Shown here piece by piece: positions 2,524 to 59,603 of a DNA stretch of 64,000 bases. The translations under genes were made by a program, and so were the position numbers. Position 1 is the first letter of the stretch. Each line of letters opens with the position of its first letter. Below the pieces are notes generated by a model, which made no database searches, was not told where the DNA came from, and saw nothing but the letters and a program-made list of their open reading frames with translations. Source of the stretch: Methanoculleus thermophilus (lineage in GTDB: Archaea; Halobacteriota; Methanomicrobia; Methanomicrobiales; Methanoculleaceae); NCBI RefSeq assembly GCF_001571405.1, contig NZ_BCNX01000008.1, positions 62,001 to 126,000 of the forward strand. The letters are read 5' to 3'.

Positions 2524-3192
2524 ATGGCAGCGACGCTCCTCTTTTTGGTCCTGCTTGCCGTCGCCGTCATCCTCATCCTCGTCCTGCTTGCCCTATACCT
2601 GGTCCCGGTGACCGTCTCGATGGTTGCCGACTGCAGTGAGGAGAGTGCCCGGGCGACGGCCGACGTAGCCTGGTGCTTTTTGGACGGGAGGGTCCGGGTG
2701 GACGACGAAGTGCAGGTGCTTGAGATCCTTCTCTTCGGCCGCCGGGTGATGAGCCGGGATCTTGGCGAGCTTGCGGCGGAGGCCCCGGAGGAGGAAGAGA
2801 AGAAGGTCGAGGAGAGGCGTCCGATCCCGGACTACCTCGGCGCCGCAACCGACCTCTGGCCCCACCTCGAGAAGATCCTCGCCGCAGTCTACCGGTCACT
2901 CTATCTAGAGACGCTCAGGGGCGATATCATCCTCGGTCTTGAGAGTCCGGCCGATACCGGGATCATATACGGCTACTGCACCGCCGCCCGCTACGCCCTC
3001 TGGCCGGCCGAGGCGATCGACTTCGTGATGACCCCGGTCTTTAACCGAAGGGTCTTTGCGGGAACCTTCACCCTCCGGACGCAGATCCGCCACCCGCTCC
3101 TGATCCTCATCCCGGTCGTCCAGGCTCTCCTGGATAGACCGGTCAGGGACCGGCTCCGTCAATTCTCGGGAAGAGGTGCTCCGGGTGGGTGA
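2524..3192 (+). CDS. DUF2953 membrane-anchored protein
   Basis: A 222-residue protein with one strong N-terminal transmembrane helix (residues 3-28, rich in Leu/Val/Ile), then a soluble domain with a charged Glu/Lys linker (about 85-100). The C-terminal part has the DUF2953 pattern GDIILGLESPADTGIIYGY followed by a basic/hydrophobic end (RHPLLILIPVVQALLDRP). The family pairs with GerW/YtfJ-type proteins in spore formers; the same pairing occurs here in an archaeon. It starts 21 bases after the gerW stop and overlaps the next gene by 17 bases. Function unknown; probably a membrane-attached partner of the GerW protein. Confidence 0.75.
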   Translation: MAATLLFLVLLAVAVILILVLLALYLVPVTVSMVADCSEESARATADVAWCFLDGRVRVDDEVQVLEILLFGRRVMSRDLGELAAEAPEEEEKKVEERRPIPDYLGAATDLWPHLEKILAAVYRSLYLETLRGDIILGLESPADTGIIYGYCTAARYALWPAEAIDFVMTPVFNRRVFAGTFTLRTQIRHPLLILIPVVQALLDRPVRDRLRQFSGRGAPGG

Positions 3193-37775: not shown

Positions 37776-37961
37776 TCAGTCCTCGCAGATGTTCTGCGGG
37801 AGGAGGTTTGGGATGCCCTCGTTGATCGGGTAGTCAACGCGGCATGCCGCGCACCGAAGGGTGCCCTCCAGCACCTCCTCGCCGCGCTCTTCTGTCACCA
37901 GGAGTTCCAGGTCCCCCTTACAGACCGGGCAGCAGAGAATCTCCATAAGATCTCTTCTCAT
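37776..37961 (-). CDS. Trm112-like zinc-ribbon protein (UPF0434 family)
   Basis: A 61-residue protein: [20 protein letters not shown], then [20 protein letters not shown] and NLLP. Two CX2C pairs form a zinc knuckle, and 'YPI..GIP.LLP' is the Trm112/YcaR hallmark. Trm112 activates several RNA- and protein-modifying methyltransferases by binding them. It overlaps purA by 4 bases. No methyltransferase gene is adjacent, so the partner is encoded elsewhere. Confidence 0.88.
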
Positions 37962-38968
37962 AGCTCACTCCGTAGATCGATGATCTGCGAGATCTCGGGG
38001 CCCGTCGAGATCAGGGTGACGGGCTTGCCGATATCCTCTTCCGCCTGCGCAATGAAGTCCTTTGCCTTCTTCGTCAGCCGATCGTACTCGGTGACGCCGA
38101 AGCAGGCCGGGTCGATCCGGTCGATCCCGGTGATCGCCGCCTGGGTGCAGCCGTTGATCATCGCCGAGTAGCGCGCCATCTCCCCGTCCCAGGTGCCGAT
38201 GCGGCGCTGCCGGTGGGTGACGGTCCCGAACTCCTCGATACCGAGCTTGTGCGACTGCTCCGCGGTCATCTCGGTCGAGAAGGGGCCCTCGCCGACCCGG
38301 GTCGGGTAGGCCTTGAAGACGACGATGACGTCGTCGATCCGGGTCGGGCCGACACCGTTATCGGCGGCGATCTGCGAGGCGGAGGTATCTTTGCTCGTCA
38401 CATACGGGTAGGTTCCGAAGTAGAGGGAGATCCCGAAGCCCTGGGTCCCCTCGAGGAGGACCATCTCGCCGTTATCGAGAGCGCTGTTGATATCCTGTGC
38501 TACGTCGGTGACAAAGTCGGCAAGCTCAGGAACATCTTTTGCCTGCCGGGATGTCCGGAGAACACGGTCTGCGTTCGCCGGGCCGCACCCGGTCCCGGTG
38601 CTCCCGATCTTCTTTCTGAGATGCTCGCTCCCCCTGTCCCGGGCGATATGCTCCTCTTCGATGACACCGCACCTGCCGTCGACAAAGATCCTCTCCCGGA
38701 CGCCGAGCAGGTCGACCTCGTGCAGGAAGACCCGGGGATCAACGAGGACGCCGCTCCCGATCATGAGGGTTGCTTCCGGGTAGACAAACCCCGAGGGGAC
38801 CATCCTGACACCGTACTCTTTTTCACCAATGCGGACGGTATGCCCTGCGTTCGGGCCGACGCCGCCCCTGGAGATGATGGATGGTCTGTCCTGGTGAGCA
38901 ATGTGGGCTACGATCTTTCCTTTTCCCTCGTCACCAAAGAACCCGCCGACGATAATAGTACAACTCAT
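37958..38968 (-). CDS. purA: Adenylosuccinate synthetase (short archaeal form)
   Basis: Joins IMP and aspartate with GTP, the first committed step to AMP. 336 residues, about 90 shorter than bacterial PurA but normal for archaea. [20 protein letters not shown] holds the P-loop GDEGKGK with the catalytic Asp; GPNAGHTV has the catalytic His. [13 protein letters not shown] and [20 protein letters not shown] bind [22 protein letters not shown] is the Arg-rich aspartate loop. It leads a six-gene operon. A TATA-like TTTATCAT (minus strand) lies near 38,999-39,006. Confidence 0.96.
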
Positions 38969-39256: not shown

Positions 39257-39279
39257 ACCCCTTCATTTCCACTGGAAAC
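39257..39279 (-). repeat. Origin recognition box (ORB)-like element 1
   Basis: The minus strand reads TTTCCAGTGGAAATGAAGGGG, matching the archaeal ORB core TTCCAnTGGAAA plus the downstream G-string. The G-string points left, away from element 2. Confidence 0.75.
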
Positions 39280-39473: not shown

Positions 39474-39495
39474 CTCCAGTGGAAGCAAAGGGGTT
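39474..39495 (+). repeat. Origin recognition box (ORB)-like element 2
   Basis: CTCCAGTGGAAGCAAAGGGG followed by TT. It is the same motif as element 1 in inverted orientation, 194 bases away, with its G-string pointing right. Confidence 0.75.
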
Positions 39496-39598: not shown

Positions 39599-40759
39599 TC
39601 ACTCTTTTGATTCCAGGAAGGCCGCCATGCGGGAGAGGGCCTCCCTGAGATCGTCCCGCGAGACCGCATAGGCGCACCGCACATGCCCGGCACCGGAGGG
39701 CCCGAGGACACTCCCCGGGACGACCGCGACATGCTGATCGTGCAGGAGTTTCTCGGCAAACTCGAGATCGCTCATGCCGGTGCTCTCCACCGAGGGGAAG
39801 GCGTAAAATGCGCCCTTCGGAACGTGGCAGGCAAGGCCGATCTTGTTTAATCCGTCGACAAAGAGGTTCCGCCGGAGACGGTACTCCCTGACCATGGCGT
39901 CTTTCTCGGCCTCCCCGATCCGGAGCGCTTCATACGCCGCGATCTGTCCCATCACCGGGGCGCAGAGCGCGACGTACTGGTGGATCTTCAAGGCCGCGGC
40001 GGTGATCTCGGGCGGAGCGCAGAGGTAGCCGATCCGCCACCCGGTCATGGCGAAGGCCTTCGAGAACCCGTTTAAGGTGATCGTCCGCTCATAGAGTTCC
40101 GGGATCCGTGCCGGAGAGAAGTGGTCGCCTTCGTAGGTGAGCTCGGCGTAGACCTCGTCGCTGATGAGGAGGAGGTCGTGGTCGACCAAAAGATCGGCGA
40201 TGCCATGCCAGTCCGCCTCCTGCATCACCCCGCCGGTGGGGTTGTTCGGGAAGTTTACGATGAGCGCCTTTGTCTTTGGGGTGATCTTCTCCGCGAGCGC
40301 CTCGGGCGTCAGCCGGAACTCGTCCTCCGCCCGGCAGGGGACGGTGACCGGGACGCCGCCTGCGAGGGAGACGCATGGGACATAGGAGACGTAACAGGGC
40401 TCTGCGACCAGGATCTCGTCTCCCGGATCCGTAATGGCCCTAATAGCGATATCGGCCGCTTCCGAGACGCCGCAGGTGACGATGATCTCGTTCTCGGGGT
40501 CATACCGGGTGCCGAAACGGGTATCGAGGTAGCGGCTGATGGCGCCCCGGAGCTGAGGAGTCCCCTTGTTTGAGGTGTAGGCGGTCGACCCCTGCTCGAT
40601 CGAGTAGATGGAGGCCTCGCAGACGCACCAAGGCGTCACGAAGTCCGGTTCACCGACACCCAGGGATATGACGTCATCCATCGTCTGGGCGATATCGAAG
40701 AACCGCCGGATCCCCGACGGAGGTATGGCGCGGGCCCGGGCAGAGACGAAATCCCTCAA
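39599..40759 (-). CDS. Class I/II PLP aminotransferase, second copy
   Basis: A 386-residue fold-type I aminotransferase. SLGVGEPDFVTPW, STAYTSNKGTPQLRGAISRY, VTCGVSEAADIAIRAI, NFPNNPTGGVM, SDEVYAELTY and the Schiff-base lysine in [20 protein letters not shown] are all present, with RCAYAVSRDDLREAL near the end. It resembles archaeal aromatic/aspartate aminotransferases; substrate unassigned. It follows an Lrp/AsnC regulator gene by 11 bases, a common pair in which the regulator controls amino-acid metabolism. Related to the 9,811-10,944 protein but clearly divergent. Confidence 0.9.
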   Translation of the reverse strand: MRDFVSARARAIPPSGIRRFFDIAQTMDDVISLGVGEPDFVTPWCVCEASIYSIEQGSTAYTSNKGTPQLRGAISRYLDTRFGTRYDPENEIIVTCGVSEAADIAIRAITDPGDEILVAEPCYVSYVPCVSLAGGVPVTVPCRAEDEFRLTPEALAEKITPKTKALIVNFPNNPTGGVMQEADWHGIADLLVDHDLLLISDEVYAELTYEGDHFSPARIPELYERTITLNGFSKAFAMTGWRIGYLCAPPEITAAALKIHQYVALCAPVMGQIAAYEALRIGEAEKDAMVREYRLRRNLFVDGLNKIGLACHVPKGAFYAFPSVESTGMSDLEFAEKLLHDQHVAVVPGSVLGPSGAGHVRCAYAVSRDDLREALSRMAAFLESKE

Positions 40760-40770
40760 CGCGCCTCACC

Positions 40771-41262
40771 TCAGAACGAGTACGGGAGACGTTCGACCTC
40801 TTCGCGCTCGGCGAAGGTGGTGCCGTTCTCCTTGTAGGTCTTCATGATGATGTGCGTCGCCGTCTCACGGATCCGGTCCATCGGGGCGATCTGCTCGGCG
40901 ACGAACCGGGCGATCTCATGCATGCTCGGCCCGGTGACCAGGAGCTGGAGGTCGTAAGCCCCGGTCATCAGCCGGAGCGACCGGACCTGGGGGAACCGGG
41001 CGATCCGCTCCGCGATCCGGTCGTAACCGAAGTCCCGTTCAGGCGAGACTTTGAGCTCGATCACCGCGGCGACGTTGCCGTCCCCGGCCCGCTCCCAGTC
41101 GACGACCGCTCCGTAGCGGCGGATGGCGCCGATCGACTCGAGCCGGCTGATCCGGCTCTTTACTTCCTCTTCGCTCATCTCGGCCAGCACCGCAAGTTCG
41201 CTTGTCGGGGTGCGGCAGTTCTCCTCCAGGAGATGGAGGAGGGTACGGTCCTTCTCGTCCAT
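40771..41262 (-). CDS. Lrp/AsnC-family transcriptional regulator
   Basis: A 163-residue regulator with an N-terminal helix-turn-helix (LLHLLEENCRTPTSELAVLA then SEEEVKSRISRLESIGAIRR) and a C-terminal RAM/ligand domain (VIELKVSPERDFGYDRIAER, then SLRLMTGAYDLQLLVTG). The layout is standard. It is 4 bases downstream of cdc6 and 11 upstream of the aminotransferase gene. It probably senses an amino acid and acts on the neighbouring aminotransferase (inference). Confidence 0.92.
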   Translation of the reverse strand: MDEKDRTLLHLLEENCRTPTSELAVLAEMSEEEVKSRISRLESIGAIRRYGAVVDWERAGDGNVAAVIELKVSPERDFGYDRIAERIARFPQVRSLRLMTGAYDLQLLVTGPSMHEIARFVAEQIAPMDRIRETATHIIMKTYKENGTTFAEREEVERLPYSF

Positions 41263-41266
41263 AATC

Positions 41267-42550
41267 TCACCTGAACATTGCTCTTAAACGATTGATATCA
41301 ATATCTCTGAGTCTCTGGTCATCCAATCTTGGGTCGCGCGTGACGACTTCCTCGATCTTGCTTGTCGTTGCATCGAACCACATCTCCTTCGTCCGGCCGT
41401 AGCGGCCGCGCGAGACGACCCGGGTGTTGATGACCCCGAGCATGTTGAGTTCGGAGATGAGGTCCGTGATCCGGCGGTGCGTCAGGACGTCGAGATCGAT
41501 GATCCGGGCAATCTCCCGATAGACCACCGTGACCTCACCGCTCGTGAATATCCTCTTGCCCATCCGCTCAAGGATCAGCATCGCATACAGGACCGCCTTG
41601 CTCTGGGTCGGGAGAGTGGAGATGCACTCCACCATGCTGTCGGTCTCGATCTTCTCCTGCGCCATCCGGACATGCCGCTCGGTCACGCCCGGTGCATTCT
41701 CGCGATCGGCAAGCTCCCCCGAGACCCGGAGAAGGTCGAGCGCCCGCCGGGCGTCGCCGTGCTCCTGCGCCGCGAGCGCCGCGCAGAGCGGGATGACCGT
41801 CTCGTCGAGCGCGCCCTCCACGAAGGCCATCTCGGCCCTCTGCTGGAGGATATCGCAGAGCTGCGGGGCGTTGTAGGGGGGAAAGACGATCTCCTCCTCG
41901 GAGAGCGAGGAGAGAACCCGGGGGTCCAGGAAGTCGGTGAACCGGAGGTCGTTTGATATCCCGATGATGCTGACCTTCGCAAACTTGAGATCGGAGTTGA
42001 TCCGGGTGAGGTTGTAGAGGGTATCGTCGCCGCTCTTCTTGACGAGTTTGTCGATCTCGTCGAGGATGATGACCATGACCCCGCCGTTGCTCTCGAGCTG
42101 GTTCTTGAGTTCCGCATAAACCTGGTCGGTCGGCCACCCGGTCATCGGGATATGGGCCCGGGTGCTGTCGCTCGGATGCGCATCGGCCTCGTCGAGGCAG
42201 TTCGCGATCTGGGCGAGGACACGGTACTGGGTATCGATCACCTCGCAGTTGAGGTGGACGACCTTGCACTTGGTCCCGGCGAGCGCACTTGCATTCTCAA
42301 GCTCGGCTCCCACGTACCGGACCGATGCCGTCTTCCCGGTCCCGGTCTTGCCGTAGATGAGGATATTGGACGGGGTCTCGTTTGTGAGAGCGGGGGCAAG
42401 AATAGAGGCAAGCTCGTCGATCTGCGGTTTCCGGTGAGGAAGGATCTGAGGACGATAACTGTGGCGGAGAACTTCCCTGTTCTTAAATATACGTCTATTG
42501 GTCAGGTATTTTTTGAATAATCCCATTGAGTTGTTCTTATCGTCCGACAT
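41267..42550 (-). CDS. cdc6: Orc1/Cdc6 replication initiator
   Basis: Archaeal origin-binding AAA+ ATPase, 427 residues. RRIFKNREVLRHSYRPQILP is the conserved lead-in, ILIYGKTGTGKTASVRYVG the Walker A, VMVIILDEIDKLVKK the Walker B, and IIGISNDLRFTDFLDPRVLS sensor 1 with LSSLSEEEIVFPPYNAPQL (initiator-specific motif). HGDARRALDLLRVSGE is the sensor 2 Arg region. The C-terminal winged helix includes VYREIARIIDLDVLTHRRI and SRGRYGRTKEMWFD for DNA contact. It sits between two clusters of ORB elements, as initiator genes usually do. Confidence 0.97.
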   Translation of the reverse strand: MSDDKNNSMGLFKKYLTNRRIFKNREVLRHSYRPQILPHRKPQIDELASILAPALTNETPSNILIYGKTGTGKTASVRYVGAELENASALAGTKCKVVHLNCEVIDTQYRVLAQIANCLDEADAHPSDSTRAHIPMTGWPTDQVYAELKNQLESNGGVMVIILDEIDKLVKKSGDDTLYNLTRINSDLKFAKVSIIGISNDLRFTDFLDPRVLSSLSEEEIVFPPYNAPQLCDILQQRAEMAFVEGALDETVIPLCAALAAQEHGDARRALDLLRVSGELADRENAPGVTERHVRMAQEKIETDSMVECISTLPTQSKAVLYAMLILERMGKRIFTSGEVTVVYREIARIIDLDVLTHRRITDLISELNMLGVINTRVVSRGRYGRTKEMWFDATTSKIEEVVTRDPRLDDQRLRDIDINRLRAMFR

Positions 42551-42627
42551 GGTGTCACCGGAGGGGGTTACCCGGACAGGAGAGTTTCGTGTCGAGGGCC
42601 CACAATATGGTTGTTCTGGAGACTGAT

Positions 42628-42650
42628 AACCCCTTCGTTTCCAGTGGAAC
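42628..42650 (-). repeat. Origin recognition box (ORB) 3
   Basis: The minus strand reads GTTCCACTGGAAACGAAGGGG then TT. Full match to the ORB core and G-string, 78 bases upstream of the cdc6 start. Confidence 0.85.
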
Positions 42651-42748
42651 GTGGAACCCGATTAGTTGCCAGCAGAACCTTGGCAGATCCGGTCAGGGAA
42701 GCTCGAGGTGAGAGGTGATCTGAGGAAGAGGATCGCAGGATCACCCCC

Positions 42749-42770
42749 ACCCCTTTGTTTCCAGTGGAAC
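42749..42770 (-). repeat. Origin recognition box (ORB) 4
   Basis: The minus strand reads GTTCCACTGGAAACAAAGGGG. Same strand as ORB 3, 120 bases further from cdc6. Confidence 0.85.
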
Positions 42771-42777
42771 GTGATGA

Positions 42778-42800
42778 TGATACACCCCCTTGGTGTATCA
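42778..42800. repeat. 9-bp inverted repeat beside ORB 4
   Basis: TGATACACC and GGTGTATCA are exact reverse complements separated by CCCTT. The site starts 8 bases from ORB 4, and GTGATGATGAT occurs on both sides (42,771-42,781 and 42,810-42,820). Could be an accessory protein site or cruciform in the origin. Confidence 0.6.
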
Positions 42801-43547
42801 CATTCAAAAGTGATGATGATAGTCATGTGTACCTCTGCAACTCAAAATATAAAAATTAATCGTTAAAGTACAGAGTGAAGAAAACAGGCAAAAAAAGAGT
42901 TAAAAGCAGAAATAAGTTTTTTTAAGGCCTAAATGACACAATTGAAACTTGTAGAACGTTGAAACCAGGTAGGATGGAGAGAGACCAGAACTGGATGAAA
43001 TAACCGGGGAAGAGGAGAAAACCTGAAACGATAGAAAGTGGAGCAGGAGAAGGAAGGATAGGAGCAGAAAGGATCCAGGAGCTTCCCTAGTACGATCCTC
43101 TTACCACCGTACGTCTCAGTGGCTCTCATCATCCCTTGGGTCTCATCTCTCTGCTCCTTATCACTCTCGATTACCCCGATGCTCTTTACTCCTCTTCACC
43201 GATCTCTTCATCGACTGCACCTCTACATCGTTTTATAATCGACCTATATTCTCTTCTTTTACTGAAATAGACAATAATATCAGACCTAAGTCCAAACGAT
43301 TCATTCTCAGAGAGCCGATAGCTCTTGGGACCCATATTAGACCTCTAAGTTCCTGTGGAAGATCGCTCTCGATTCTCTTCTCCTGCAATTCTCTCTTCTT
43401 CTTCCACGACGGACCGGATCAGTGAATCATGAAAAACTCGATTATCTGCCAGTATAATCAGAATCTAACGTAAAAACACGGTTTTATCCCCTCACCCACC
43501 ATTCCCCTCCAACCTGCCCTCGCCCTTGCCCTCGTGGTCCCGAATAT

Positions 43548-43569
43548 GTTCCAGTGGAAACAAAGGGGT
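43548..43569 (+). repeat. Origin recognition box (ORB) 5
   Basis: GTTCCAGTGGAAACAAAGGGG then T. Inverted relative to ORBs 3 and 4, marking the right side of the origin, 73 bases before the moaB start. Confidence 0.85.
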
Positions 43570-43641
43570 CAGGGATTCCCCACCTCCTCCGGGAAGATAG
43601 AAAGAAGTAAAATACGCGGTATAGGAGTACGGGATGATCTC

Positions 43642-44139
43642 ATGGAGAGCAACCATCTTAAACCCATCACTGTGACCGGTGCCGTCATCACCGTCTCATC
43701 GACCCGGAAGCCGGAGACCGATGCCAGCGGGAAGATCCTGATCGACCTCTTTTCGGCCGCCGGTATCGAGGTGACCCACTACGCCGTTATCCCCGACGAC
43801 CTTGAGCGGATCCGTGCCGAGGTCCGGACGGCGCTTACGCGCGCAAACTGCGTCGTCGTCACCGGGGGGACCGGGCTCACACCGGACGATGTGACGATTG
43901 AGGCGGTCGCGCCGCTGCTTGAGAAGACGATCGACGGATTCGGCGAACTCTTCCGGCTCAAGAGTTACGAAGAGATCGGGACCTCCGCCATCCTCTCCCG
44001 GGCGATCGCCGGGGTCGTCGGCGGTCGGGCGGTCTTCTGCATCCCGGGCTCAACCAAGGCCGTCACGCTTGCTGCAAAGGAGATCATCATCCCCGAGATC
44101 CAGCATATCCTCTCTCACGCCGGGCCGACTCAGCGGTAG
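43642..44139 (+). CDS. moaB: Molybdenum cofactor biosynthesis protein MoaB
   Basis: A 165-residue molybdopterin adenylyltransferase-type protein. From ATG 43642 it reads MESNHLKPITVTGAVITVSS, the usual MoaB/Mog N-terminus. RKPETDASGKIL, VVVTGGTGLTPDDVTIEAV, FGELFRLKSYEEIGTSAILS and VFCIPGSTKAVTLAAKEIII are all conserved. It provides molybdopterin for tungsten or molybdenum formylmethanofuran and formate dehydrogenases. Upstream in-frame ATGs run back into ORB 5, so the shorter start is preferred. Converges with cgi121, overlapping by 10 bases. Confidence 0.93.
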   Translation: MESNHLKPITVTGAVITVSSTRKPETDASGKILIDLFSAAGIEVTHYAVIPDDLERIRAEVRTALTRANCVVVTGGTGLTPDDVTIEAVAPLLEKTIDGFGELFRLKSYEEIGTSAILSRAIAGVVGGRAVFCIPGSTKAVTLAAKEIIIPEIQHILSHAGPTQR

Positions 44140-44657
44140 ACGTCGAGGAGCGCCACCCGCTCGATGACCAGGTCGCGGAACCGGTCCTCGCCGACGACCG
44201 CGACCTCCTCGGGCGTGATATCGTAGAGGTCCGCAAGACGCGCCCGCTTCGCGGGATCGATCGTCTCCCAGTCCTCGTCGACAAACCGCACAAGACCGGC
44301 AAGTCGGTCGCGGACGCCCGATGCAGGGGGACAGACCGCGATGTAGAAGCGGTTCTCCCCCGGGTGGATCCCAAAGGACGAGGCCACATGGCACTGCCGC
44401 GTTCCCGCGGCGTAGAGGAGCGCCTCCATCTCGATCGAGTTCGCTATCGGGTCGCCCCGATTCCACGATCGCCAGGCATGCCGGAGCGCCGCTCTTACGT
44501 GCTCGCGCCCGGCCAGGCGGTCGGCGTCAAAGAGGATGATATGGGTTCCGCACTCGTCGGCGATCGTCCTGATCTCGTTTAAGAGTTTGAACTTATTCTC
44601 GATCGTAGCGACCGCCTGATAGATATCGCATGCTACTTCTGCCATTTTCTCGTTCAC
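44130..44657 (-). CDS. Cgi121-like KEOPS complex subunit
   Basis: A 175-residue homologue of the KEOPS subunit Cgi121, which helps deliver tRNA for t6A modification. Evidence: the core [33 protein letters not shown], and [20 protein letters not shown], the family's most conserved stretch ('ANS...E.L...AG.RQI'), then [16 protein letters not shown]. It starts at a GTG overlapping the hel308 stop (GTGA); ATG 44645 is the alternative. Cgi121 genes are commonly found right after hel308 in euryarchaea, as here. The C-terminal [20 protein letters not shown] is an extension typical of methanogens. Confidence 0.88.
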
Positions 44658-46792
44658 CCGAACCGGGAGAGGGTCGACTGCTCCTCGCTGATCTCCTGGA
44701 TCTCTTCCCGCACGCCATCAAGCTGCTCAAAGACCTGAGCGGCGATCCCCTGCCCGAGGATCCTGGAAACCTTTTCCTGTCCTGCGGCGCGGAGCGCCTC
44801 GATCGAGTCGATGCCGTTGTCAAAGAGCCGGCGCGCCCTGACGCGCCCGATCCCGCGCAGCCTGATGAGGGGCAGGAGCTCTTTCTTGATACCGTGCTTG
44901 GTCCGGAGTTCCATCTCCTCGATGGGGCGGACGAGGTGCGGGGCAAAGAGCCCGGCGAGGTGCCGGCTCGCGTGGACCAGCCAGGCGACGCTCTCGACCA
45001 TCCCGTAGACATCACCGGGACCGACGTTGTAGCGCCGGCAGATCTCGTCCTCGCCGATCTCGTTCACCCAGTCGGCGAGGAGGAGCGCGGTCTTGAGGCT
45101 CCGGTCGAACTCTTCGTCGGCGTCCCAGGGGATCTCCATCCAGAGATCGTCACGGTGGTCGGCGAGGAACCGGTCTAGGAGGTACATATCGTCCCGTCGA
45201 ACGAAGAGCGTCGGCATATCCGGCGTCGAGCAGAGGAGGTGAAGGAGCCCAATATCGGTGTAGTCCTTCTGATCCGCCATCGCCGTCACGATCACCTCCG
45301 CGCTCCTCGGATCGATGTAGAGTCGGGAGACGAGCGACCCGTACTCCGTCGGCTCGAGCCAGTCCCCCACCTCGGTGATCATCTCCGCCTCGCGCAGGAA
45401 CTCAAGCACCCGGTGGACAACCCGCGAGAGCGCACGCTGGCTCTCGCCCTGGTGGGCGTAGAACGTCCCGTCCATGAACCCGAGCACCTCATCGCGCTCC
45501 CGGGCGAAGCCTGTCGCGATGAGCGAGAGGATGTGGGTGCAGAGGACCGCCTCGTTTGCGCACCGGCTCCGGACGTCCTCCGCCGGGGCCTCGATGTAGC
45601 AGTCGAAGAGCTCCTCGACCATCTCCTCCGACTTCGCGATCAGGACCGCCTCGCCGTAGGGGTCGAGGTGCGGCCGCCCGGCCCGCCCGGCCATCTGCCG
45701 GTACTCCCGGACCGGGATCGGGAGCATCCCCTCCCCGGCGCTGAACCGGAGGTAGTCGCGGATGATCACCCGCCTGGCGGGAAGGTTCAGGCCGGCCGCA
45801 AGGGTCGGTGTCGAGGCGATCACCTTGATCTCCCCCTCACGGAATCCGGCCTCAACAATCTGCCGCTCTTCCCGCGAGAGGCCGGCGTGATGGAACGCCG
45901 CGCCCTGCGCAACACAGGCCGCAAGAGTCTTTCCCATATCGGTCGCGGCGTTCGAGCGGATCCGATCCGCATATCCGGCGAGGACGGGGTTTGCGAGTTT
46001 CAAGCCCGAGGCCGCGCGTTTCGCGAACGCTTCGGCGTTCTTGCGGGAGCTGACAAAGACCAGGCACTGCCCTCCCTCCGCGACCGTGTCGAGGACGAGG
46101 TCCAGGTCCTCGTACTTGCTCTTTCGTTCGATCTGCCGGACGCGGTCGGCGAACTGGATGCTGTCCTGGAAGAAGACCCCCTCCCTGAGATCGACCGGCC
46201 GCCAGTCGCTCTCGATGAGTTCGGCGTCCAGCCACCCCGCAAGGTCGGCAGGGTTCCCGATCGTCGCCGAGAGACCGATGATCTGCATATCCGGGTTTCT
46301 GTGGCGGAGTTTCGTGATCACCATCTCAAGCGTCGCCCCCCGAGAGGGGTCGTCGATCAGGTGCGCCTCATCGACGACGAGGAGGGTGATGTCGGCAAGC
46401 CACGGCGTCCGGTTCCGCAGGAGCGAGTCCACCTTCTCGCTCGTCGCGACGATGATATCGTTTCGTCCGAGGTAGTCGTCCCTCCGGTCGAAGTCGCCGG
46501 TCGCGATCCCGATCCGGAGCCCTTTCCCCGAGAACTCCTGGAACTTCTCGCTCGCGAGCGCTCGCAGAGGAACGATGTAGAGGCACTTGCCGCCCCTCGC
46601 CACCTGATGGTGCATCGCCATCTCGGCGACCAGGGTCTTGCCGCTCGCGGTTGGGATGGAGATGAGGAGGTTCTTCCCCGAAAAAAGCCCCGCTTCGACG
46701 CACGCGGCCTGAGGCGGGTAGAGTTCGGTGATCCCGCGGCGAGCGTAACTGGCCGCGAGATCCGGCGGGATGGGGAGACCCGCTATCTCCAT
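44654..46792 (-). CDS. hel308: Hel308/Hjm DNA helicase
   Basis: Superfamily 2 3'-5' helicase acting at stalled forks, 712 residues. Motifs: [20 protein letters not shown] (Q-motif), [16 protein letters not shown] (Walker A), [33 protein letters not shown] (DEAH), [10 protein letters not shown] (III), [10 protein letters not shown] (IV), [18 protein letters not shown] (V) and [11 protein letters not shown] (VI). A winged helix, ratchet domain and C-terminal helix-loop-helix ([20 protein letters not shown]) follow. Complete in all respects. An ORB-like sequence lies 5 bases before the start. Confidence 0.97.
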
Positions 46793-46796
46793 GTAT

Positions 46797-46816
46797 ACCC
46801 CTTCATTTCCACTGCA
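46797..46816 (-). repeat. Degenerate ORB-like sequence at the hel308 start
   Basis: The plus strand reads ACCCCTTCATTTCCACTGCA, identical to ORB 1 except that the final TGGAA half is TGCAG. It begins 5 bases upstream of the hel308 ATG, so it could touch the promoter or leader of that gene. Confidence 0.5.
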
Positions 46817-46874
46817 GACTCCATACTGCGCGTATTGTTATGGCCATGGACAGAACCGGCTCGCCCCGGCAATA

Positions 46875-47417
46875 TCACGAATAATACTCCAGCATCTCCC
46901 GTTTGGCTTCCTTTTTCTTCCGATCGAGGAAAGCGTAGACATGTTCGTGAGGCACGCCCTGGATCAGCATCTCGATTGCTTTTCGTGCGATCTCGACATG
47001 ATCGGGAAGACCGATGATCGCAACGGTCTTGCCCTGGACCGAGATCTCCGTGCCGGTCATATCCTCGATCTGGGCGCGGGATGTCCCTGCTTTTCCGATG
47101 ATCCGGCCCCGGAGCCGCTCGAGCTGCCTACTCGACCCCGAGAGGTCGGCGAGGTCGAGGATATCGAGCATCATATCCTCGTCATCGAGGAGCCGGAACG
47201 CGCGTTCCGGCGAGAATCCACGGTTGATCGCGGAGATGACGTTTGTCGCCGTCATCACGTTCACGGGATCCTCCCCCTCGATCGTCACCAATCCTTCTTC
47301 GCTGTCGATCCGGAGAGATATCCCAATCTTCTCTTCGATCTCGCGCTTTGTGGACCCGCTCTTTCCGATGAGTACACCGATCCTCGCGGTTGAAATTTTC
47401 ATCTCCTGTGTGGTCAT
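46875..47417 (-). CDS. KH-domain protein, archaeal Dim2/Pno1 homologue
   Basis: A 180-residue protein with two KH domains. KH1: RIGVLIGKSGSTKREIEEKI (GxxG motif), LRIDSEEGLVTIEG. KH2: LRGRIIGKAGTSRAQIEDMT, SVQGKTVAIIGLP. The end VPHEHVYAFLDRKKKEAKRE is the aDim2 signature tail. The archaeal protein assists 16S rRNA 3' maturation and binds eIF2alpha in Pyrococcus. It overlaps rio1 by 4 bases, the common archaeal pair, since RIO kinases act in the same 30S maturation step. Confidence 0.92.
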   Translation of the reverse strand: MTTQEMKISTARIGVLIGKSGSTKREIEEKIGISLRIDSEEGLVTIEGEDPVNVMTATNVISAINRGFSPERAFRLLDDEDMMLDILDLADLSGSSRQLERLRGRIIGKAGTSRAQIEDMTGTEISVQGKTVAIIGLPDHVEIARKAIEMLIQGVPHEHVYAFLDRKKKEAKREMLEYYS

Positions 47418-57957: not shown

Positions 57958-58791
57958 TTAAAACCATTTATCCAGCGTTTGGTTTTGGTGTTTTGGTTCG
58001 ACATTTTTTGGAGGATAATATAGTCCTATTATCAACCATGTGGGCTGAAGTGAATGCATACCAACGACAAAATAGAGATCTCTCTCGTTTATCATCCAAG
58101 TGTAAAACTTTTCATATAACTTTTCCCACAGAATCTGGATGTCTCCATACTCTCGGCCCCATCTACGATATGCCTCCAATAGCTCCCAATCTTCGCATAA
58201 AATGTCATGATAACTATTCGAGCAGGTTAAGCAATTGTCAGAGCACTTAAAATGATATGCAAATGGGTATGGAATTTTTTGGATTATGGGGGTTTTTGAT
58301 CCATCAAGTCCTTGCCGATATTGGTTTGGATCTATGTAGATTTCAAGTTCTCGCCGGCTATAAAATTTTAGAATTTCTTTAGGTCTAATCAATCCAAGCG
58401 AGGTCTTATCTTCCTTGTATTTGTAATCTAATTGACTTAGAGAAAGATCAACTTTATCGAGAAGTAGTTTGTTGCGTTTATCCCAAATTTTGTTGTTGGA
58501 TGTGCCACTTAAACTACGATCTATAATAGTAATATCTGAACCTTCTTTGACTTTGTAACTCTCTTTTCTCCGGAGTTTTTCGGACTTTGCTTTCTGGCAG
58601 GTGACTTCCACAAGATCGAACTTATGAATCTTATTACTTCCAATATAATGTTTAGTTGGAATGGGATACAGCCGGATCCAATCCCCTTCTTCAGTAATTC
58701 CGGCTGTACAAGCGACCTCACTTCGAGATTTTCGGCTGTATTCAGGGTAGGTTTTTACTATAATCCAGACACGTTTTTTCTCCCAGCTCAC
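57958..58791 (-). CDS. Uncharacterised cassette protein, partner of the DUF488 gene
   Basis: A 277-residue protein: MSWEKKRVWIIVKTYPEYSR, then KSRSEVACTAGITEEGDWIR and LYPIPTKHYIG. I recall similar uncharacterised proteins ('VKTYP.PS.KY.E.VCTAGI...G.WIRLYPIPFR') beside DUF488 genes in variable regions; no name. In the last third FKCSDNCLTCSNSYHDILCE has CX3CX2C then His and Cys, a possible zinc site, followed by DWELLEAYRRW. Lys-, Ile- and Tyr-rich with A/T-ending codons, unlike the host. It overlaps the DUF488 gene by 4 bases. Confidence 0.75.
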   Translation of the reverse strand: MSWEKKRVWIIVKTYPEYSRKSRSEVACTAGITEEGDWIRLYPIPTKHYIGSNKIHKFDLVEVTCQKAKSEKLRRKESYKVKEGSDITIIDRSLSGTSNNKIWDKRNKLLLDKVDLSLSQLDYKYKEDKTSLGLIRPKEILKFYSRRELEIYIDPNQYRQGLDGSKTPIIQKIPYPFAYHFKCSDNCLTCSNSYHDILCEDWELLEAYRRWGREYGDIQILWEKLYEKFYTWMINERDLYFVVGMHSLQPTWLIIGLYYPPKNVEPKHQNQTLDKWF

Positions 58792-59603
58792 AAGTCAACA
58801 ATCTCCCACCCCTCCTTGCGTAATCGGTCTGCAATGACTCCTCTATGGCAGTGGCTGGCGTTTTTTTCAAAGCACATCAGGGCAATTTTTTCTTGACCCC
58901 CTAGAGCCTTTATTTTTTCGATCAGGTCCCCTTTATATTCAAGTTCGGAAGAATATTGTTTAAACAACTCCTGATATCCATTTTGGGTAATATCCCGTCT
59001 TCGACTTGATTCTATTCCAAGTTCGGGGATGTGAACGTACTTGATACAAAAGTTCTGTAAATTCCTTGATAATGCCTCTTTTGAGTATCCGTACTTTCTG
59101 CTGAACGCATTTCTCCTTACATCCACAAGTAAGGTAACGCGATTGGCGATCAGTGTCTGGAAGAATTGATCGATGTCTTTCCCCTCATACCCTATTGTTG
59201 TAATGCCCTTCTCTTCGGAAATTTGCTCCTTTTTTGGCTTCAATTTACTGAATATTGTATATTCCGGGAAATGATCATAGACATAGTCAATAATATCCAT
59301 GTCTGTAGAAGCCTGAAATTTTTGAGCATATGACGAGATAATCTCCTGCAAAAAGAAATCCGGCTTCGGAAATACGGTGTCGAGAATCTGGACATTTTCA
59401 TCTATTAATATGCTACCTGATTTTTCGAGATTAAACAGATCCCTATATAGTTGAAATGAGAAGGGGCCATACTTGTACGGAACGAAATTGTATAAGCTTC
59501 GCTCTTGTGAGATCAAGAACATCAACTTGACCAACTTCATTTTTGAAATCTTTCCATAACGAGCAATCAGAAAAAGAACTGCTCGTTGACTTTTATTTAT
59601 CAT
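58788..59603 (-). CDS. DUF488 protein with N-terminal SocA/Panacea-like domain
   Basis: A 271-residue two-part protein. Residues 1-125: AVLFLIARYGKISKMKLVKL, LMFLISQERSLYNFVPYKYG, then PFSFQLYRDLFNLEKSGSIL, resembling the SocA/Panacea (DUF4065) antitoxin fold ('K..KL.Y......YGP.....'). Residues 135-271 are DUF488: GITTIGYEGKDIDQFFQTLI, LLVDVRRNAFSRKYGYSKEA, and IALMCFEKNASHCHRGVIAD with the conserved Cys...CHR. DUF488 often appears in conflict-associated islands. First gene of the cassette pair. A toxin-antitoxin or defence role is inference. Confidence 0.82.
   Translation of the reverse strand: MINKSQRAVLFLIARYGKISKMKLVKLMFLISQERSLYNFVPYKYGPFSFQLYRDLFNLEKSGSILIDENVQILDTVFPKPDFFLQEIISSYAQKFQASTDMDIIDYVYDHFPEYTIFSKLKPKKEQISEEKGITTIGYEGKDIDQFFQTLIANRVTLLVDVRRNAFSRKYGYSKEALSRNLQNFCIKYVHIPELGIESSRRRDITQNGYQELFKQYSSELEYKGDLIEKIKALGGQEKIALMCFEKNASHCHRGVIADRLRKEGWEIVDL

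Follow-up and report, generated by a model that had tools for sequence, protein, structure and literature searches.

A very probable chromosomal replication origin beside orc1/cdc6 in Methanoculleus thermophilus, with a conserved array of putative ORBs that reaches the start of hel308

The window analysed here, that is, the whole stretch of 64,000 nucleotides (positions 62001-126000 of contig C8 in a 2.22-Mb assembly), contains an orc1/cdc6 initiator gene and a moaB-like molybdenum cofactor gene on the two sides of an intergenic region (42551-43641), with genes for an Lrp-like regulator, an aminotransferase and purA beyond the former, and cgi121, the helicase gene hel308 and a KH-domain gene beyond the latter (Table 1). 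The presence of orc1/cdc6 next to this region, claimed in an earlier sequence-only reading, was confirmed by a match above the family cut-off; the product is of Orc1-1 type, its nearest solved structures being those of S. solfataricus Orc1-1 (2qby_A, 352 bits) and A. pernix ORC1 (2v1u, 342 bits), with a score against Orc1-3 (147 bits) that is far below that for 2qby_A, and its closest match among named relatives (96%) is in Methanoculleus sp. NL_3.1. The moaB-like gene has a TIGR00177 domain (122 bits), which exceeds the cut-off. The genome also encodes two more cdc6 paralogues (G000:C7:45658-46542 and G000:C20:8676-9542), with 25-27% identity to the cdc6 of the window. Farther along the window, a low-GC island at 58000-59600 (39-48% vs ~63%), probably recently acquired, carries two minus-strand ORFs, 57958-58791 and 58788-59603, the second of which we take to resemble a DUF4065-DUF488 fusion.

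Table 1. Genes and sequence features of the locus, in window coordinates.
Feature	Position	Strand	Remarks
purA	37958-38968	-	two satellite ORBs come next in gene order
Left satellite ORB	39258-39277	-	1 mismatch; conserved
Left satellite ORB, inverted to the preceding box	39474-39493	+	2 mismatches
Aminotransferase gene	39599-40759	-	
Lrp-like regulator gene	40771-41262	-	
orc1/cdc6 initiator gene, Orc1-1 type	41267-42550	-	NF001625 ORC1-type replication protein, 607 bits, cut-off 501
ORB1	42630-42649	-	0 mismatches; 79-80 bp upstream of cdc6
ORB2, inner box on cdc6 side	42750-42769	-	0 mismatches; 199 bp before cdc6
Inverted repeat TGATACACC-CCCTT-GGTGTATCA, directly inside ORB2	42778-42800		starts conserved stretch 42771-42853
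Further half-site copy GTGATGATGATAG, motif AGTCATGTGTA (42821-42831) and TATA-like AATATAAAAA (42847-42856)	42810-42856		near-invariant in 20 Methanoculleus
Probable duplex unwinding element	42844-42943		75% AT; ranks second in instability among the 100-bp segments of the window
Purine-rich then pyrimidine-rich stretch	42960-43260		plus-strand switch at 43081; lengthens ORB2-ORB3 interval
ORB3, inverted vs ORB1 and ORB2	43549-43568	+	0 mismatches; 93 bp upstream of moaB
moaB-like molybdenum cofactor gene, origin border	43642-44139	+	TIGR02667 158 bits (below cut-off 222); synteny
cgi121	44130-44657	-	
hel308 helicase gene, ORB at start	44654-46792	-	NF002654 ATP-dependent DNA helicase, 1080 bits, cut-off 887
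hel308-linked ORB	46798-46817	-	3 mismatches; ends 5 nt before hel308 start codon
KH-domain gene	46875-47417	-	beyond hel308-linked ORB

A search of the window with the 20-nt ORB pattern TTCCANTGGAAACNAAGGGG, allowing ≤3 mismatches, yielded six sites across 7.5 kb. The three full ORBs reported by the sequence-only reading are exact matches to this pattern, two on the minus strand and one on the plus strand, and the three weaker sites, at 39.3-39.5 kb and 46.8 kb, are satellites that fall outside 42551-43641. By chance, a mean of 0.03 sites per window would be expected, and none of 100 dinucleotide shuffles reached six. Moreover, all five sites with ≤2 mismatches in the 2.22-Mb assembly are inside the window, a single 3-mismatch match was found outside it in the whole assembly, at an unrelated site on contig C6, and the whole-assembly search gave no ORB with ≤2 mismatches near the cdc6 paralogues of the same genome. 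Thus, the three exact matches, the low expectation and the confinement of the ≤2-mismatch sites to the window make the ORB observation real and far from chance. ORBs were present in 61 of the 61 relatives of the order that were searched, and the boxes at cdc6, with a near-constant gene order, recur in the loci read from six families. Taken together, the predicted boxes make up a conserved array that extends over 7.5 kb and takes in the box at the start of hel308.

The intergenic region itself contains no credible ORF and has 54% AT, vs 39% AT in the surrounding 15 kb, in agreement with its earlier description as non-coding and A+T-richer, and an Rfam scan of 42400-43800 gave no RNA family. The distance between ORB1 and cdc6 is unchanged in nearly all Methanoculleus relatives, the ORB3-moaB spacing is near-fixed among them, and in 89 loci cdc6 is preceded, at 130-360 bp, by a minus-strand box. 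ORB2 and ORB3 point toward each other with their dyad ends, that of ORB2 being directed toward the very unstable, AT-rich DNA beside it, whose predicted instability supports the earlier placing of an unwinding element between these two boxes. Across 20 Methanoculleus, the conserved blocks are the three ORBs, the stretch 42771-42853 and short blocks adjoining cdc6 and moaB. The ORB2-ORB3 interval, which amounts to 779 bp here and to 437-1043 bp in most Methanoculleus, corresponds in many other genera to inner inverted boxes separated by ~150-270 bp. It is lengthened by a stretch in which a purine-rich half gives way to a pyrimidine-rich one, with 68% purine to the left of the switch vs 36% to its right (across 42771-43548, permutation p<0.0002). 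This switch is found in most Methanoculleus and is rare in other genera, being absent from most of them. When the stretch was folded as single-stranded DNA, no excess over shuffles was observed (z -0.72) and, therefore, the reading of it as a special hairpin was dropped.

Directly inside ORB2, an inverted repeat opens the conserved stretch. In other genera, an inverted repeat occupies the same place with a different sequence, so that the dyad is kept. Arms across the order, such as TGATACACC here, AAAGAAAACAGG and AATAATATGAT, are not G-rich, and the arm spacing ranges from 2 to 10 nt across loci. Of 89 loci, 43 have a dyad that is significant against shuffles at p<0.05 and 25 have one that is so at p<0.01, vs 6/89 and 4/89 loci at p<0.05 in two neighbouring control segments, these loci being related, with arm sequences that differ between genera, and not 89 independent tests. 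The further half-site copy is significant in 27/89 loci and is followed by an order-wide consensus, AGYCATTTGTA...TATAAAA; of 119 genomes, 22 have the Methanoculleus form of the motif, each as a single copy located at the origin. The dyad probably binds a second, lineage-specific factor, for which the Lrp-like protein encoded beside cdc6 would be a first candidate, or acts as a promoter operator, and the whole stretch of dyad, AGYCATTTGTA and TATA-like sequence may be a candidate cdc6 promoter, operator or origin-factor site.

The outlying boxes probably perform two different jobs. The left pair sits ~1.8-2.0 kb beyond the cdc6 3' end, behind the Lrp-like and aminotransferase genes, and, among 94 distinct loci, 46 had an ORB within ≤700 bp of the aminotransferase 3' end, vs 0/94 for the reversed pattern, the pair being absent from several genera. 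A role of these satellites as purA promoter boxes was rejected, since the box keeps to the aminotransferase 3' end where purA is farther away (L123, L126) and is still beside the aminotransferase where purA was undetected in the stretch (L016, L028, L029). Linked to the origin side, the left pair may adjust the supply of the initiator, in a manner reminiscent of the oriC2-cdc6E ORB cluster of Haloarcula hispanica.

On the other side, the box at hel308 was found in 42 of 65 distinct loci, mostly with 1-3 mismatches (hel308 strand alone scored), at either 5-8 nt or ~11-26 nt before the start. It stays with the gene when hel308 lies ~23 kb (G078), 40 kb (G086) or 41 kb (G084) from cdc6; in G085 and G087, hel308 and its box are ~26-41 kb from the ORB cluster, and in G080, G081 and G082 the gene with its box is on a different contig. 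Since the box accompanies the gene when distant, it belongs to hel308 and is not set by the geometry of the origin. Most likely, Orc1 would control hel308 expression through this putative site over the gene start, and, because hel308 changes its place between genomes, a natural control is at hand for testing such regulation. In its full form, the proposal is that the initiator Orc1 controls hel308 through the start-site ORB wherever the gene lies, which would couple origin licensing to fork repair, and that a second, order-wide core element (the sequence-changing dyad, AGYCATTTGTA and the TATA-like sequence) serves another factor across Methanomicrobiales; we hold it at even odds.

Two other explanations of the hel308 box have to be weighed. 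The box could be a conserved ribosome-binding or leader sequence that resembles an ORB and is not an Orc1 site, a possibility that we regard as rather doubtful. In Methanoculleus and several other genera, the gap between the end of AAGGGG and the start codon is 5-6 nt, which is Shine-Dalgarno spacing, and in this gap-5 class the box overlaps the likely ribosome-binding site, so that translation may explain part of the conservation. However, the entire TGGAAN(N)NAAGGGG half is kept, not GGGG alone, the box is 18-26 nt upstream in Methanoregula-like and some other genera, which is too far, and the reversed-pattern control scored 0/65. A ribosome-binding site thus explains the gap-5 class only. 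It is unlikely, in turn, that an extended origin takes in both the hel308 box and the left pair by looping its distant boxes to the core: in most genomes these satellites do lie to the left and right of the core, roughly 3-5 kb away, but the right box travels with hel308 to 23-41 kb and several genera are without the left pair, so neither satellite is needed at a fixed distance. Control of hel308 by Orc1 would be the simplest reading of this box.

As the genome of the window is in 23 contigs, strand composition was computed on relatives, using 40 evenly spaced 20-kb stretches in each of two complete chromosomes of the same genus (G023 and G003). The sequence-only reading had proposed a skew change as a check, and this was borne out for AT skew, which flips at the orthologous locus in both relatives; for GC skew it stood in G003 only. 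AT skew differed between the arms set by the locus with permutation p values of 0.0002 (G023) and 0.0001 (G003), and GC skew flipped in G003 (p 0.002), whereas no flip of GC skew was detected in G023 (p 0.51), which counts against oriC. The best-fitting origin by AT skew was at 380 kb vs 356 kb for the locus in G023, and at 280 vs 208 kb in G003, that is, 24 and 72 kb off, about one sampling step (50-65 kb). In a third genome, covered in its right arm alone, both skews had the expected signs (AT skew, p=0.0003; GC skew, p=0.058).

The locus is very probably the chromosomal oriC. The attributes of an archaeal Orc1/Cdc6-ORB origin were found together here (an initiator gene, inverted ORBs, meltable AT-rich DNA and, in relatives, a switch in strand composition), the examined Methanomicrobiales loci share this layout of boxes and genes, and the interpretation as oriC put forward in the sequence-only reading is upheld by these attributes, this conservation and the AT-skew switch. 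Overall, the best explanation is that this is the main, and probably the only, chromosomal oriC of a Methanoculleus species, to which we assign a probability of about 0.92. That the boxes are only transcriptional operators, through which Orc1 would regulate cdc6 (its own gene), moaB and hel308 while another site, such as a cdc6 paralogue, serves as the start of replication, is very improbable: the near-fixed spacing in Methanoculleus of ORB1 upstream of cdc6 (79-80 bp) and of ORB3 upstream of moaB (~93 bp), the link of one box to hel308 and the existence of two other paralogues would suit it, but strand composition switches at the locus in two complete relatives, no other ORB cluster of the genome is as strong, the very unstable DNA flanked by inverted boxes has the layout of characterised ORB-type origins, and the paralogues of the same genome have no nearby ORB of ≤2 mismatches. 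For the locus as oriC, by analogy with characterised archaeal origins, Orc1/Cdc6 from the adjacent gene would bind ORB1, ORB2 and the inverted ORB3, both box orientations would direct the MCM helicase onto the region between them, and melting at the AT-rich DNA beside ORB2 (42844-42943) would give rise to two diverging forks.

Most Methanoculleus genomes contain one extra ORB, which in complete ones is several hundred kb off, between convergent genes (for example, G003:C1:764378 and G020:C1:632895). The orthologous lone box in the genome of the window (C7:49074-49098; L119:11080) has a degraded G-side and is ~2.3 kb from a cdc6 paralogue. A second origin may exist elsewhere in the genome, in view of the two further cdc6 paralogues and of this lone ORB-like site close to one of them; at the distal ORB of G003, no skew minimum was visible. 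The idea that distal single ORBs are promoter sites was unsupported for the Methanoculleus one examined closely, which is between convergent genes, and this lone conserved box could be a titration site or a relic origin. A conserved lone ORB with 0-1 mismatches was also observed in the Methanoregula-like loci L161, L163, L164 and L166 (~3010-3040) and, likewise, at L171:3075 in one genome of another family. In the Methanoregula-like set, it is ~225-250 kb from the origin in three genomes and adjoins a gene that is TMEM175-like by eye and a gene of 363 aa.

Few methanogens have experimentally mapped origins. A literature search found no origin analysis for Methanoculleus or other Methanomicrobiales, and the genome paper of M. 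bourgensis MAB1 mentions the origin only through inversions around it. At this locus the boxes are defined exactly, the predicted unwinding site can be tested, and the fragment is compact enough for building plasmids. Moreover, if the hel308 box binds Orc1, the initiator would also be a regulator of a fork-repair gene, which recalls the double role of DnaA in bacteria. The core is a well-known kind of archaeal origin, of ordinary design, and the hel308-linked box, the dyad element and the purine/pyrimidine insert seem to be variations undescribed as far as the literature searched shows.

In Pyrococcus there is a single ORB-type oriC beside cdc6, and Sulfolobus oriC1 is also of this type (PMC4010727, PMC12141716); as in both, an Orc1-1-type gene here adjoins an AT-rich region with inverted ORBs. 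However, the ORB3-DUE-ORB2 region of Sulfolobus spans ~130 bp (PMC12141716), vs 779 bp between ORB2 and ORB3 here by virtue of the purine/pyrimidine insert, and, compared with the origins of both genera, further boxes lie kilobases out on both sides. Sulfolobus also has a protein-bound motif between its ORBs (PMC12141716), and the position of AGYCATTTGTA is comparable to that of the ucm element bound by UBP. In Haloarcula hispanica oriC1, a G-rich inverted repeat inside both ORBs enhances the origin (PMC3936714); here, an inverted repeat is likewise directly inside an ORB, although it is not G-rich, varies by genus and was examined inside ORB2 only. The oriC2D of the same organism, with 11 ORBs directly downstream of cdc6E, restrains oriC2 (PMC3936714) and resembles the left pair in that extra ORBs occur beyond cdc6, away from the core origin; unlike that dense cluster directly downstream of the initiator gene, two boxes are found here, behind two genes. 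In Thermococcales, the gene that encodes DP1, a subunit of PolD, contains an ORB and mini-ORBs (PMC2643942) and, like hel308, is a further ORB-bearing replication or repair gene in the neighbourhood of cdc6, but the box of hel308 is at the gene start and follows the gene when it is moved. Finally, Sulfolobus Orc1-2 is a non-initiator DNA-damage regulator (PMC9738581), and the putative control of hel308 would resemble it as a case of an Orc1-family protein acting on transcription, with the difference that the implied regulator would be the Orc1 of initiator type, working through an ORB.
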